DNA of 64,000 nt from Pseudomonadota bacterium (lineage in GTDB: Bacteria; Desulfobacterota; Binatia; Binatales; Binataceae), in contig JAJPHZ010000035.1 of NCBI GenBank assembly GCA_021325025.1, positions 186,001 to 250,000 on the forward strand, written 5' to 3'. The notes under the pieces are model-generated. The model saw only the letters and a list, made by a program, of their open reading frames with translations. It did no database searches and was not told the DNA's origin. Shown one piece after another: positions 25,741 through 50,411 of the stretch. The position numbers and the translations under genes are program-made. Position 1 is the stretch's first letter; each line of letters begins with the position of its first letter.

Positions 25741-26137
25741 AGCGCGCGGGCCTGTGGATAGAAACGCATCTTCTCTTGTAAGACGCGGGGATTTGTTGCA
25801 TCATACACGCGTTTTTCTTGTTCAGTGTTCTTGCAGGTCGAGCGGTCGAGATCGGAGAGGATGGCGCATGCGTTTGGAATTTGCCTGCGTGCCGGCGGTG
25901 GGGAAAGTGCACGACAAAGATCGCTCCAACTTCAGGCCCTCTGAGTCTGGGCAGCAACAGAGAGGATGGAAGGCGGGTCGACGGCATTCGTCGGCGCGGT
26001 CTCTTGTAACATAAAAGAGCCGTGGAATGGAAAAGCGAAATTCGGCGTTGGCGCGCGACAGCCCGGTCCGGGCGCGCACGACAATCCAAGTAGTCCCGAA
26101 ATAAAATCCTGACAAACCTGAACAGTTTCCAGACATG
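25741..26137. other. Intergenic region upstream of the repeated leader element
   Basis: No credible gene. GC-rich inverted repeats occur near 26045-26080 (for example GCCCG-N3-CGGGC at 26061-26073). Parts of it resemble the segment before the second leader copy (around 50380-50440), which suggests that the shared region is longer than the well-conserved core. The promoter for the GH5-like gene should lie here. Confidence 0.45.
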
Positions 26138-26252
26138 ACCCGGCGCGGGCGTTGGCCCGCCCGCGCCGGGGGTTACCTGATGCGCCCGAGCACTACGGAC
26201 AACATCGAGGCTGGCAATCTCTATTGTCTTCCCGTGCTCGTGGCTCGTCAAG
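26138..26252 (+). promoter_or_regulatory. Candidate structured cis-regulatory RNA, left copy
   Basis: A 115-nt element that recurs, inverted, at 50246-50359; by hand about 100 of 117 aligned columns agree. Its parts, in order: a 13-bp GC-rich hairpin (CCCGGCGCGGGCG at 26139-26151 with its complement at 26158-26170); a conserved single-stranded stretch around CCTGA; CGAGCAC (26187-26193), which can pair with GTGCTCG (26234-26240); and inside that a stem from GACAA/TTGTC and GAG/CTC around a GCTGGCAAT loop. The longest identical blocks are GCCCGAGCACTACGGACA and ATCGAGGCTGGCAATCTC. It ends 18 nt before the GH5-like start codon. I know no riboswitch class with these blocks. Confidence 0.6.
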
Positions 26253-26271
26253 CAAACGAGAAAGAGCACGG
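26232..26271 (+). promoter_or_regulatory. Start-codon-occluding hairpin (putative expression platform)
   Basis: CCGTGCTC (26232-26239) is perfectly complementary to GAGCACGG (26264-26271), and inside it CTCGT pairs with ACGAG. The 3' arm covers the purine-rich ribosome-binding region and the first base of the GTG start at 26271. The 5' arm overlaps the GTGCTCG that can pair with the conserved core, so the two folds exclude each other. The inner pair U-A in this copy is C-G in the right copy, a compensatory change. Confidence 0.55.
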
Positions 26272-28187
26272 TGAAGCAAAACAAACCCCTTAAGTATGTT
26301 ATAGGTGCATTCGCGCTGGTATCGGCGCTGGCCGTATGGGTGCCGCAGGTTGCGGCCTCCTCGGTGGTTTGGTTTATCTCCCCGCTAAACGGACAGACCG
26401 TGAGCGGTTCGATTACCGTGATGGTCGGGATTTCGTCCAAGCCAGCAAACGGTCCGAATTCGGTGGCGTCGACGCGTCTGGAGGTGGACGGCACGGTGGT
26501 CGCCATCGGCTACAACGAGCTGAGCTGGAATACCACTACGGTGGCCAACGGAACCCACCAATTGCGGGTGGACGCCTTCAGCCGCTCCACTACTCCACTT
26601 GGCTATTCCATCATCAATGTCAACGTCGACAATCCGGTTGCAACGCCAGCGCCGACGCCCACGCTTGATCCGCCAAAGGCGACTGCTACCCCCACTCCCA
26701 AGCCGACGCCCACCACCAGTCCGAAGCCGACCGCTACTCCTGCTGCGGCCCCAACGTCGGTGCTCTGGTTCCTCTCTCCGCTCAACGGACAGACCGTGAG
26801 CGGGTCGATTACCGTGGTGCTCGACATCCCATCGACCCCGTCCGCTACGGATCCGACCTCGGTTTGGTGGACGCGCCTGGAGGTGGACGGCACGGCGGTG
26901 GTTTCGGGTTACAACAATCTGCCCTGGAATACGGCTACGGTTGCCAATGGAACTCATCAGTTGCGGGTCGATGGCTTCGCGTACGGTTCGAGCACCTCGC
27001 TGGGCTACTCGATCATCAACGTAAACGTCAACAACTCCGGTGCGACACCGACGCCAACGCCGAAGTCAACCCCTACTCCGGCGCCATCGCCGACTCCCAG
27101 TCCCAAGCCCACCGCCACGCCGGTGGGACCAACCCCCACGGCAACCGCCACTTCGACGGGTCTGTCCTTGTCGGTCTCAGGCAGCAGGTTGGTCAACGGG
27201 TCGGGACAAACCGTGACTTTACACGGGGTAGACATGGGCACCGCGGCCTTTAGCTGTCTCAACGGTTGGGGAACCTTCAACCAGCCCCACACCTCGACCA
27301 CGATTTCGGCGCTGCAAGCCTGGAATGTGAACTTCGTCTGGATCGGGTTGAATGAGGACTGCTGGCTGGGCATCAACGGCGAGCCCACGGGCGAGAGCGC
27401 CGCACAGTACCGCAGCGACATTCTGGCATGGAGTCGATCGCTGGAAGCTGCAGGAATCTATGTTCTTCTCGACCTCCAGTGGGTAGCCCCGGGAACCTAC
27501 GTCTCCAACGCCGAGCAGCCGCTTCCGGATAAGGATCACGCGCCGAGCTTCTGGGCATCTGTAGCCGCGACCTTCGCCAATGAGAAGGGCGTCGCCTTTA
27601 ACCTTTTGGATGAACCGACCTGCTATCTCGCCACTCAGGTGGGTGGAACCGCTTGCAATTGGAACGTGTGGTTGAACGGCGGCTCCAACGTCACATGCCG
27701 GCAGGGTTCGTGCAACGCTGTCCCGTATACACCGGTCGGCATGAACAGCCTGATCTCGACCATCCGCGCGGCCGAGGGTTCCGGCTGGCATCATGTCATC
27801 ATGGCGCCCACCCTGGGCTTCACGCTCAGTCTTGCCACCTGGCCCAGCTACGCGCCGAGCGACAGCGCCCATCAATTGATCGCGGGCTCCTCAGCCTGGG
27901 GCGGCAACACGGGAAACGATTGCGCCTGGACTGATACTACGTGCATGGCCAACGATATAGGGGCTCCGGTCCGCGCCGGGTATCCGGTAGTAATTTACGG
28001 CCAGGGCGGCACTCCCTGGTCGACGGCCAATCCGATCTTCCTTAACTGGACCCAAGCCAACATTTCCGGTGAATCTGCCTGGTCCTGGGAAAACGAAGGA
28101 GACGGGTATGCGCTGACCTCGGACGGGAACGGGACAGCTACAGTCTATGGCGCCAGCTACAAGCTCTGGCTCCTGGGATTGCCGTGA
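26271..28187 (+). CDS. Secreted GH5-like protein with two Ig-like repeats; altered active site
   Basis: A 638-aa exported protein. A signal peptide (about 1-29) is followed by two near-identical Ig-like domains (about 30-121 and 164-255; both contain SPLNGQTVSGSITV), Pro/Thr linkers (122-163, 256-295) and a C-terminal GH5-type TIM-barrel (297-638). The acid/base Glu448 is in a DEP motif where NEP is usual. At the nucleophile strand, YPVVIYGQGG has Gln578 where the family has Glu (AGEIG), and the active-site H-x-Y after strand six is not recognisable. It may bind rather than cleave polysaccharide. The start is the GTG at 26271, inside a regulatory hairpin. Confidence 0.8.
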   Translation: MKQNKPLKYVIGAFALVSALAVWVPQVAASSVVWFISPLNGQTVSGSITVMVGISSKPANGPNSVASTRLEVDGTVVAIGYNELSWNTTTVANGTHQLRVDAFSRSTTPLGYSIINVNVDNPVATPAPTPTLDPPKATATPTPKPTPTTSPKPTATPAAAPTSVLWFLSPLNGQTVSGSITVVLDIPSTPSATDPTSVWWTRLEVDGTAVVSGYNNLPWNTATVANGTHQLRVDGFAYGSSTSLGYSIINVNVNNSGATPTPTPKSTPTPAPSPTPSPKPTATPVGPTPTATATSTGLSLSVSGSRLVNGSGQTVTLHGVDMGTAAFSCLNGWGTFNQPHTSTTISALQAWNVNFVWIGLNEDCWLGINGEPTGESAAQYRSDILAWSRSLEAAGIYVLLDLQWVAPGTYVSNAEQPLPDKDHAPSFWASVAATFANEKGVAFNLLDEPTCYLATQVGGTACNWNVWLNGGSNVTCRQGSCNAVPYTPVGMNSLISTIRAAEGSGWHHVIMAPTLGFTLSLATWPSYAPSDSAHQLIAGSSAWGGNTGNDCAWTDTTCMANDIGAPVRAGYPVVIYGQGGTPWSTANPIFLNWTQANISGESAWSWENEGDGYALTSDGNGTATVYGASYKLWLLGLP

Positions 28188-29296: not shown

Positions 29297-30535
29297 TCAC
29301 GGCAACGTGGCCAAATGCGCCTTATATCCCGCGCCGTACCTCGTCGGCGTGCCATCACTATCGGTTACAAGCGAAGGGTCTGAACAGGCTGCCACGTCCC
29401 ACGACCAGGGCGCGTATCCGCCGGTTCCAAGGCGGTCAAAGAACGACATGAAAGTATCGAGGATGGGGGTCCACCGGCACGCCGGCGCACCGCCCGCAGT
29501 CAGATCTCCAAAGCCGCCGGCGAGCAGTGGTACCTGCGCCGCCACCGCCGCCCAGGATGCAGTCCAACACGAAAGGGTCTGACAACTGCCCGCGCCGTCG
29601 TTGAAGAACTGAACGTAAGCACCTTTCTGCTGGTAAGGATCGGCCGGGCTGTCGGCCAGCCAGCTCCCGTTGCGATCAGCAAGGGTATTGGAAGAGTCGA
29701 TGCCGGGGATCCACACCACGTGGTGCCATCCATTACCTTCGGCGCCCCTGACCGTCATGAGTAACTGCCGTATGCCCGCGGCCGCATAACTCTTACCTGC
29801 CGGGCAGTCGCCGCCTTTCAGACAGGTTGCGTAGCAGCCGCCGTTATAAAGACATGACCACGTCAGCGTGAAACTCCCATCAGGGTTGCGCTGCGGTTCC
29901 TCGGCCAGGTTGAAGGAGACCGCCCGATCGTCGGCAAACTCCGAAGCAATCGAAGACCATAGGGCGCCGGCGTGATCGGCGTCCGGCAGTGGCTCATGGC
30001 TGTTGGACAGGTAGGAGCCGGGAGCGAACCAGGCCAGGTCCAGTACCGCATAAATCCCGTTGTCTTCCAGCAGGTTCACGTAATTCCTAATCGCACTGCG
30101 ATAATTGGCTCCGCTGGCAATGGCGGGTGCGCCGTTTATTCCGAGCCAGCAGTCTTCGTTGATTGAAAGCCATACGAGGTTGATGTTCCATCTCTTCATC
30201 GCCTCAACCGACGCCTGGTCGCTTGGCCCACTGAACACCGAGCCGCGGCTCAAACACGCATACGCACTACTGCCCCGGGCGACCCCATGCAGGAAAACGG
30301 TATTACCCATTCCGTCAACCAGACGATTTCCTGAAACCGACAGCGACATCGCTTTTGAATCCGAACCCGCGGCGGGCATCGCCGGTATGCTAAGTGTTGC
30401 GCGCGGAGTTGAACCGGCGATTGCCTGTTCGGCCGGCGCCGGCGCCGTAAAGACGGCCAATAGCAACAGACCGAGAACAGTCCTTAGACGGCTGCCACGA
30501 AGCGCAGCCTGCCCGTCTGATTTTGCGTAGTTCAC
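29297..30535 (-). CDS. Secreted GH5-like protein, second paralogue; altered active site
   Basis: A 412-aa exported protein with a signal peptide (about 15-36) and a single GH5-type domain (about 64-412) related to that of the protein at 26271: both share a LSVSGxRLV opening, a NEDCWLGING motif and an APGxYxSN motif. The acid/base Glu213 is in AEEP in place of NEP. At the nucleophile strand it reads PLLAGGFGD, with Gly341 where Glu is expected, so normal retaining hydrolysis looks impossible. It is embedded in the EPS cluster between the methyltransferase and glycosyltransferase genes, so a polysaccharide-binding or structural role is plausible. Confidence 0.78.
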   Translation of the reverse strand: MNYAKSDGQAALRGSRLRTVLGLLLLAVFTAPAPAEQAIAGSTPRATLSIPAMPAAGSDSKAMSLSVSGNRLVDGMGNTVFLHGVARGSSAYACLSRGSVFSGPSDQASVEAMKRWNINLVWLSINEDCWLGINGAPAIASGANYRSAIRNYVNLLEDNGIYAVLDLAWFAPGSYLSNSHEPLPDADHAGALWSSIASEFADDRAVSFNLAEEPQRNPDGSFTLTWSCLYNGGCYATCLKGGDCPAGKSYAAAGIRQLLMTVRGAEGNGWHHVVWIPGIDSSNTLADRNGSWLADSPADPYQQKGAYVQFFNDGAGSCQTLSCWTASWAAVAAQVPLLAGGFGDLTAGGAPACRWTPILDTFMSFFDRLGTGGYAPWSWDVAACSDPSLVTDSDGTPTRYGAGYKAHLATLP

Positions 30536-48906: not shown

Positions 48907-49674
48907 CTAAAGCGCCGGCACCGGCACTGACATGTACGGCGGGAAGGGCAGCAGCCCCTGGATATACTGTTTGACGAACAGGTCGACGTTGGCGATCGGG
49001 CTGCGCGGCACTACCAGCACGTCGGAGGGCAGCAGCGCCACGTCGTCGACACCTTTGCCGCTGTTGGCCGCCTGCAGGTCGATCTTCATGCCGTGCGGAT
49101 TGCCGCAGGCGTCGCGGCGGATCAGCACAGTGCTGTCGGCCCCGCCGTTTTCGGTAACGCCGCCCGCCTCCGCGATCGCCTGCAAAGCGGTTTCGCCCGG
49201 CTGCAGGGGGAAGGCGCCCGCATGAGCCACCTGCCCTTGCACATAGACCCGCCACGTCGGGCTGTTCTTGACGTGCACGGCCGCGCCCGGATTGCGCAGC
49301 TCGCGGCGATAGGCCTGATCGAGCCGTTGCGCAAACTGCTCCGGCGTCAGACCGGCGGCGGGCAGCGAGCCGACCAGATCGAGGCTGACATTTCCGTCGG
49401 GACGCACCGTGACGTCGCGGTTGAATTCCGGGTTGAGATAGAAGTCGAGCTGCAATTCGTCGCCGGGCCTGATGATATAGTTGCCCTGTTCGGCCTCCTG
49501 CGCCGCCAGCATCGCGGCTGGCGGACAGGTGCTCTTGCGTGCCGCGGCGCTTGCGACCAGATCGCCGCGTTCAGCCGTGCTCGCGCATCCGGCCAGCAAC
49601 ACCGCGGCAAGCACGACGCCAAGACTTGCTTTCAGCAAACCATCTGTGAGCCGAACCGACGCGCCCGGAATCAT
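48907..49674 (-). CDS. Wza-like outer-membrane polysaccharide export lipoprotein
   Basis: Forms the export channel for the polymer. The 255-aa protein has a signal peptide with lipobox LAGC (Cys30), then the Poly_export domain starting YIIRPGDELQLDFYLNPE and a SLBB domain (WRVYVQGQVAHAGAFPLQPG). It is shorter than E. coli Wza (about 380 aa) because it has one SLBB domain. GGAGGG precedes the ATG at 49674, and a 7-bp hairpin overlaps that site. It is the first gene of the minus-strand EPS run and is preceded by a leader of about 700 nt that contains the repeated RNA-like element. Confidence 0.92.
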   Translation of the reverse strand: MIPGASVRLTDGLLKASLGVVLAAVLLAGCASTAERGDLVASAAARKSTCPPAAMLAAQEAEQGNYIIRPGDELQLDFYLNPEFNRDVTVRPDGNVSLDLVGSLPAAGLTPEQFAQRLDQAYRRELRNPGAAVHVKNSPTWRVYVQGQVAHAGAFPLQPGETALQAIAEAGGVTENGGADSTVLIRRDACGNPHGMKIDLQAANSGKGVDDVALLPSDVLVVPRSPIANVDLFVKQYIQGLLPFPPYMSVPVPAL

Positions 49675-50226: not shown

Positions 50227-50264
50227 GTGGGCCCGGTTTCTCTCCCTTGACGGGCCGCGACCAC
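50227..50264 (-). promoter_or_regulatory. Terminal hairpin of the right leader copy
   Basis: On the transcript GTG (50264-50262), a 5-nt bulge and GGCCCG (50256-50251) pair with CGGGCC-CAC (50235-50227). It corresponds to the start-codon hairpin of the left copy: the shared CTCG/CGAG stem there is CCCG/CGGG here, a U-A to C-G compensatory change. It ends just before the TAAGG of the small leader ORF. Confidence 0.45.
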
Positions 50265-50359
50265 AAAGCGACAATTGAGATTGCCAGCCTCGATTGTGTC
50301 CGTAGTGCTCGGGCACGTCAGGTGAACCCCGGTGCGGGCGGCCAACGCCCGCGCCGGGT
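50246..50359 (-). promoter_or_regulatory. Candidate structured cis-regulatory RNA, right copy
   Basis: The inverted second copy (114 nt) of the element at 26138-26252. It is transcribed toward the Wza-like gene about 570 nt away, the first gene of the EPS run. The GC-rich first hairpin is kept with one C-A mismatch. The GAGCACTACGGACA and GAGGCTGGCAATCTC blocks are identical, and the inner GACACAAT/ATTGTC stem is kept. The long-range pairing CGAGCAC with GTGGTCG has one mismatch in this copy. Placement upstream of the major EPS transcript supports a role in its control. Confidence 0.6.
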
Positions 50360-50411
50360 AATTTTTTTCAGTCCAGCATCAGGAAGAGCATCGGCCGGAC
50401 CAAGAGTCGGC

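Follow-up and report, generated by a model that had tools for sequence, protein, structure and literature searches.

In plasmid pT181, attenuation is controlled by an antisense RNA, a small RNA being encoded opposite a leader that can form alternative helices. The locus described here has the same layout, with the small RNA a prediction, but it is chromosomal, the step controlled would be translation rather than transcription, and we infer the coupling between RNA and leader.

Intergenic small RNAs that occur as sibling copies are known in bacteria from Neisseria, where they are represented by NgncR_162/163 (PMC9973317). Our element resembles these in being short and structured, with its own promoter and several related copies per genome, although here the RNA is predicted from sequence. 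It differs from them in that no Hfq was detected, the T-run is weak or absent in most copies, and the linkage is to Big_7 and exopolysaccharide genes. In bidirectional promoters (PMC10268837), the -10 elements overlap and the starts are usually 18 bp apart. Pseudo-symmetric DNA, sigma70-like boxes on both strands and opposite transcripts are features in common, as candidates in our case, but here the candidate promoters point towards one another, their starts lie ~3 nt apart, and the one on the plus strand (CTGAYG-N17-CACAAT) is weak. With the riboswitch candidates known as the gltD and carA motifs (PMC8632094), the locus shares a start-region hairpin or conserved structure directly before a gene; unlike them, it has no broadly conserved sense aptamer and no ligand-related gene set, and it is confined to one genus.

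The element was met in a window of 64,000 nucleotides (the whole stretch of DNA that was analysed), in which an earlier note had seen two copies of a block and proposed a riboswitch controlling a secreted gene. Further copies re-explain what two copies may suggest to be a switch. Once the strand is corrected, what looked like an orphan riboswitch is more plausibly a small-RNA family tied to exopolysaccharide and secreted Big_7 genes, and the block is best classed as a new family of small RNAs, restricted to one uncultured genus, next to a conserved start-codon hairpin. The features discussed are collected in Table 1; individual copies and leaders elsewhere are cited by L numbers.

Table 1. Features of the two element copies and their neighbourhoods in the window
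Feature	Position	Strand	Remarks
Possible sense promoter of secreted gene, ACGACA-N18-TAAAAT	26078..26107	+	Copy 1 only, unconserved elsewhere
Predicted small RNA, copy 1, ~78 nt, two hairpins	26138..26215	-	+1 at ~26215, 3' end at ~26138; R2 92 bits; 8 copies; promoter directly upstream
Predicted 3' hairpin, 13 bp, GC-rich, terminator-like	26139..26170	-	Copy 1 without T-run; both-side changes in 5 of 13 pairs
Predicted 5' hairpin, invariant TGC in loop	26176..26210	-	94% of cells paired
Sigma70-like promoter, copy 1: TTGACG (26251-26246), 17-nt spacer, GACAAT (26228-26223)	26223..26251	-	
5' arm of start-codon hairpin	26229..26239	+	Inside small-RNA promoter spacer
3' arm of start-codon hairpin	26264..26275	+	Pre-GTG region, GTG and codon 2
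Secreted protein gene, two Big_7 Ig-like domains and a GH5-like domain	26271..28187	+	Pfam Big_7 1.5e-7; Cellulase 5.2e-5, just under cut-off
Poly_export/SLBB gene, first of exopolysaccharide operon beside copy 2	48907..49674	-	Pfam Poly_export 5e-19
Promoter, copy 2: TTGACG-N17-GACAAT	50247..50275	+	
Predicted small RNA, copy 2	50283..50359	+	R2 96 bits; upstream of and divergent from exopolysaccharide operon
Intrinsic terminator, copy 2: 13-bp stem, then TAATTTTTTT	50328..50368	+	

Distribution of the element

Direct reading confirmed that the block ends 18 nt upstream of the GTG start at 26271, and the second copy in the window was recovered at 50245-50359, in inverted orientation (minus strand) with respect to copy 1 (115 nt at 85% identity, E 2e-30). 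The searches brought eight copies in all, spread over three species that belong to a single genus: G000, the genome of the window, has two, G025 one and G026 five. The searches covered 41 genomes of the family at the DNA level and employed two covariance models. R1, built on the whole element in its plain sense orientation, was run on 148 genomes of the class and found no homologue outside the genus; R2, built on the minus-strand RNA alone, was run on 36 relatives and 395 genomes of the phylum, and among the latter found nothing convincing outside the genus, with one weak match of the kind expected by chance. The covariance-model searches, of the kind that the earlier note had called for, agree with the DNA search in placing copies in two sister species of the window's genome. 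A degenerate pattern was also scanned against 84,980 species; apart from chance matches inside coding sequence it returned only the same genus, in the form of two sister genomes (Centralia MAGs 278 and 399). No copy was found in plasmids, and viral contigs gave one chance coding match only. Rfam, searched at curated thresholds and permissively, had no match, in keeping with the earlier note, which had recognised none of the riboswitch classes that it considered.

Three of the copies stand at one orthologous site, between an SDR/SMP-30-like gene block and the exopolysaccharide operon. Across the three genomes the element is 81-93% identical at this locus, compared with 69-77% for the neighbouring genes. 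Other intergenic DNA there gives only short matches, the element being nearly the sole conserved non-coding stretch. Its identity above that of the genes on either side makes purifying selection likely.

A predicted small RNA on the minus strand

Read on the small-RNA strand, each element opens with a conserved GCCASCCTYGAY. A two-hairpin model in the minus orientation fits all eight copies, which are few and related, a limit on the reading as a small-RNA gene, and RNAalifold finds the two-hairpin fold unaided. In the 5' hairpin, minus-strand G-U pairs occupy 14 cells at five pair positions, whereas would-be plus-strand G-U pairs occupy three cells. Compared with shuffled sequences, copy 1 folds with z = -4.94 on the small-RNA strand and -3.30 on the opposite strand, and copy 2 with -4.93 and -1.97. 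For L009 the fold is slightly better on the other strand (z = -5.7, compared with -4.8), and folding by itself therefore leaves the strand undecided. The sense-strand model R1 fits seven copies and was rejected, the eighth scoring 36 bits with it and 82 bits with the minus-strand R2.

The limits of the conserved RNA are sharp, the predicted +1 marking one end and the 13-bp GC hairpin the other; in the ungapped alignment, conservation falls from 0.9 to ~0.37 at the +1 and to 0.25 just beyond the 3' hairpin. Five copies have TTGACG-N17-GACAAT or its AACAAT variant 6-7 nt upstream of the conserved +1, within the top 0.2-0.5% of positions. L009 lacks the whole palindromic right half, yet it carries TTCACC-N16-TAAAAT at the same distance from the +1 (top 0.2% of locus positions). 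The promoter is decayed in L007 and L008. In the gapped alignment, the -35 (0.86) and -10 (0.81) boxes are as conserved as the RNA, whereas the spacer (0.62) and discriminator (0.42) vary, and conserved boxes about a variable spacer are, judged by this pattern, a putative promoter footprint. A gene for a ~78-nt minus-strand RNA is predicted, and its product would presumably be made in the cell.

Copy 2 amounts to a full promoter-RNA-terminator cassette. It alone has a strong T-run after the 3' hairpin; the other copies have the stem alone, with a T-run that is weak or absent in most. Hfq (PF17209) had no match in G000, G025 or G026, whose estimated completeness is 93-96%, in a search that was positive in controls including E. 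coli and B. subtilis, so a classic Hfq-dependent role in trans is unlikely.

The start-codon hairpin

On the plus strand, the earlier note had paired CCGTGCTC (26232-26239) with GAGCACGG (26264-26271), hiding the start region of the secreted gene. The positions are exact and the helix is real and longer than noted, with 11 bp and one bulge in the window, where 26223-26285 folds with z = -5.65. A start helix of 11-16 bp is present in all four homologous leaders, from three genomes. The three leaders other than that of the window belong to secreted Big_7 proteins or a close homologue (L014, L011, L012), and there the helix runs through ATGAAGAGA. Compensatory changes are seen among the four leaders: in L006 and L001, U-A pairs have become C-G and the pairing is preserved. 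Tested against shuffled start regions, the four leaders have a combined p of ~1.5e-7, which is overstated because they are related and not independent; counting control ORF starts that pair as well gives ranks of 0-3 of 176. The sealed start is the minimum-energy fold in three leaders, and L006 is partly sealed.

The element stands directly before a start codon in half of its copies, and the core is retained in the gene-less ones. The arm is conserved at 0.76 beside the gene and at 0.45 where there is none, whereas the corresponding values for the small RNA are 0.77 and 0.75. The arm has drifted where the gene is lost (window copy 2, with its decayed start codon) or absent (L004, L008), and copies without a neighbouring gene have kept the RNA and promoter boxes but lost the switch arm. 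As the arm drifts without the gene and the RNA does not, the element is under two constraints that can be told apart: the small RNA and its promoter appear to be constrained in most copies, and the start-codon arm only beside the gene. L008 was also considered as the leader of an enoyl-CoA hydratase gene; this role was rejected, since between the two lies a conserved promoter-like stretch that belongs to the hydratase gene itself.

The Big_7 secreted proteins are a sizeable paralogous family in the genus (G000, G025, G026), and most paralogues are without the element, e.g. those at G025:C140, G025:C152, G026:C13, G000:C9 and G000:C28. The window itself has a second secreted GH5-like gene nearby at 29297-30535 (minus strand), 41% identical in the catalytic part to the gene at 26271 and likewise without the element.

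How the two strands may be related

We consider it probable that the leader of the secreted Big_7 gene adjoins, back to back, a minus-strand small-RNA gene whose promoter spacer doubles as the start-sealing arm. The sigma70-like promoter on the minus strand would make the ~78-nt two-hairpin RNA, and the same promoter region would, on the plus strand, also serve as the 5' leader of the gene. By folding back, the promoter-spacer sequence would cover the start codon together with the first codons and lower translation, the sense gene being poorly translated because its start is buried. Either the RNA or RNA polymerase at the opposing promoter may modulate the gene. The likeliest coupling would be mutual exclusion of the two transcriptions, with RNA polymerase at one of the facing promoters shutting it out from the other, or antisense pairing with the leader if it is transcribed from upstream. 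Should the start helix and small RNA cooperate, the arrangement would be very compact, a promoter on one strand and a translational lock on the other.

The translational riboswitch of the earlier note is in our judgement unlikely. In such a switch the start would be freed when the core (26176-26210) pairs with the arm (26229-26240), or else be sealed by the arm, with a ligand or protein deciding between the two. An expression platform hiding the start region does exist, conserved in four leaders, and CGAGCAC stands at 26187-26193 exactly as reported. Its pairing with the arm is present in most copies, with 88% of cells paired and compensatory changes in L004, L007 and L008, the most striking being those in L007, whose small-RNA promoter is decayed; these changes keep a sense-strand switch in play. 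In the long palindrome they are joined by sense-strand G-U pairs (19 cells versus 5), which outnumber A-C in the core-arm helix, and together they favour a sense-strand fold. Against this, two pairs are broken in L006, one of the four gene-linked copies, where the start helix survives by compensatory change, and the pairing is absent from L009. Few parts of the long stem are as poorly conserved as the arm, which is the variable spacer of the predicted promoter and is conserved only where the gene is present. A role of the core as aptamer of this leader is not supported: it survives without a neighbouring gene and, in one copy, without the 3' half that holds the arm; its conservation is highest up to the predicted +1 of a promoter on the opposite strand, on which the window copies also fold better, and it is not consistently sense-oriented upstream of genes. 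No shared sense promoter or sigma54 site upstream of the element is consistent across copies. The four linked genes, from one genus, all encode the same type of secreted protein and show neither a metabolite theme nor a ligand-linked set, and no known class was matched in Rfam.

Equally doubtful is a leader gated by antisense RNA. If the sense transcript starts upstream, the minus-strand RNA, perfectly complementary to the core, would bind the core, and the arm thus released could shut off the start codon. A candidate sense promoter at copy 1 (Table 1) and the sealed minimum-energy folds described above speak for such gating, but that promoter is not conserved, and pairing of the small RNA with the neighbouring start region is no better than for shuffles in three of four cases. 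In its fullest form, which we likewise regard as improbable, this would be a self-contained switch within ~115 bp, an antisense RNA from within the leader refolding that leader while the spacer of its own promoter seals the start. That the element is instead non-regulatory, a mobile or repetitive palindrome of the REP/MITE kind, seems very improbable. It does occur in multiple intergenic copies, 1-5 per genome, and in G026 a doubtful inverted pair flanks a ParB-like gene lying between two genes that in G000 are separated by ~370 nt. The copies are few, however, those at the orthologous site are retained at an identity above that of the genes, the conservation is sharp and promoter-like, and several copies are linked to start codons.

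Other repeated sequences

The inverted pair lies at L010:6630-7940 (G026:C1), and the flanked gene resembles a ParB-type domain protein with no Pfam match; the gene sits elsewhere in G025, without the element. Close by, at L010:8327-8431 (G026:C1), is a different stretch of ~100 nt that recurs at ~80% identity at several sites in G000, e.g. C37, C15, C33, C6, C42, C19 and C12, and at few in G025. ARAGORN calls no tRNA in it, and it is possibly another repeated RNA or element of the genus.
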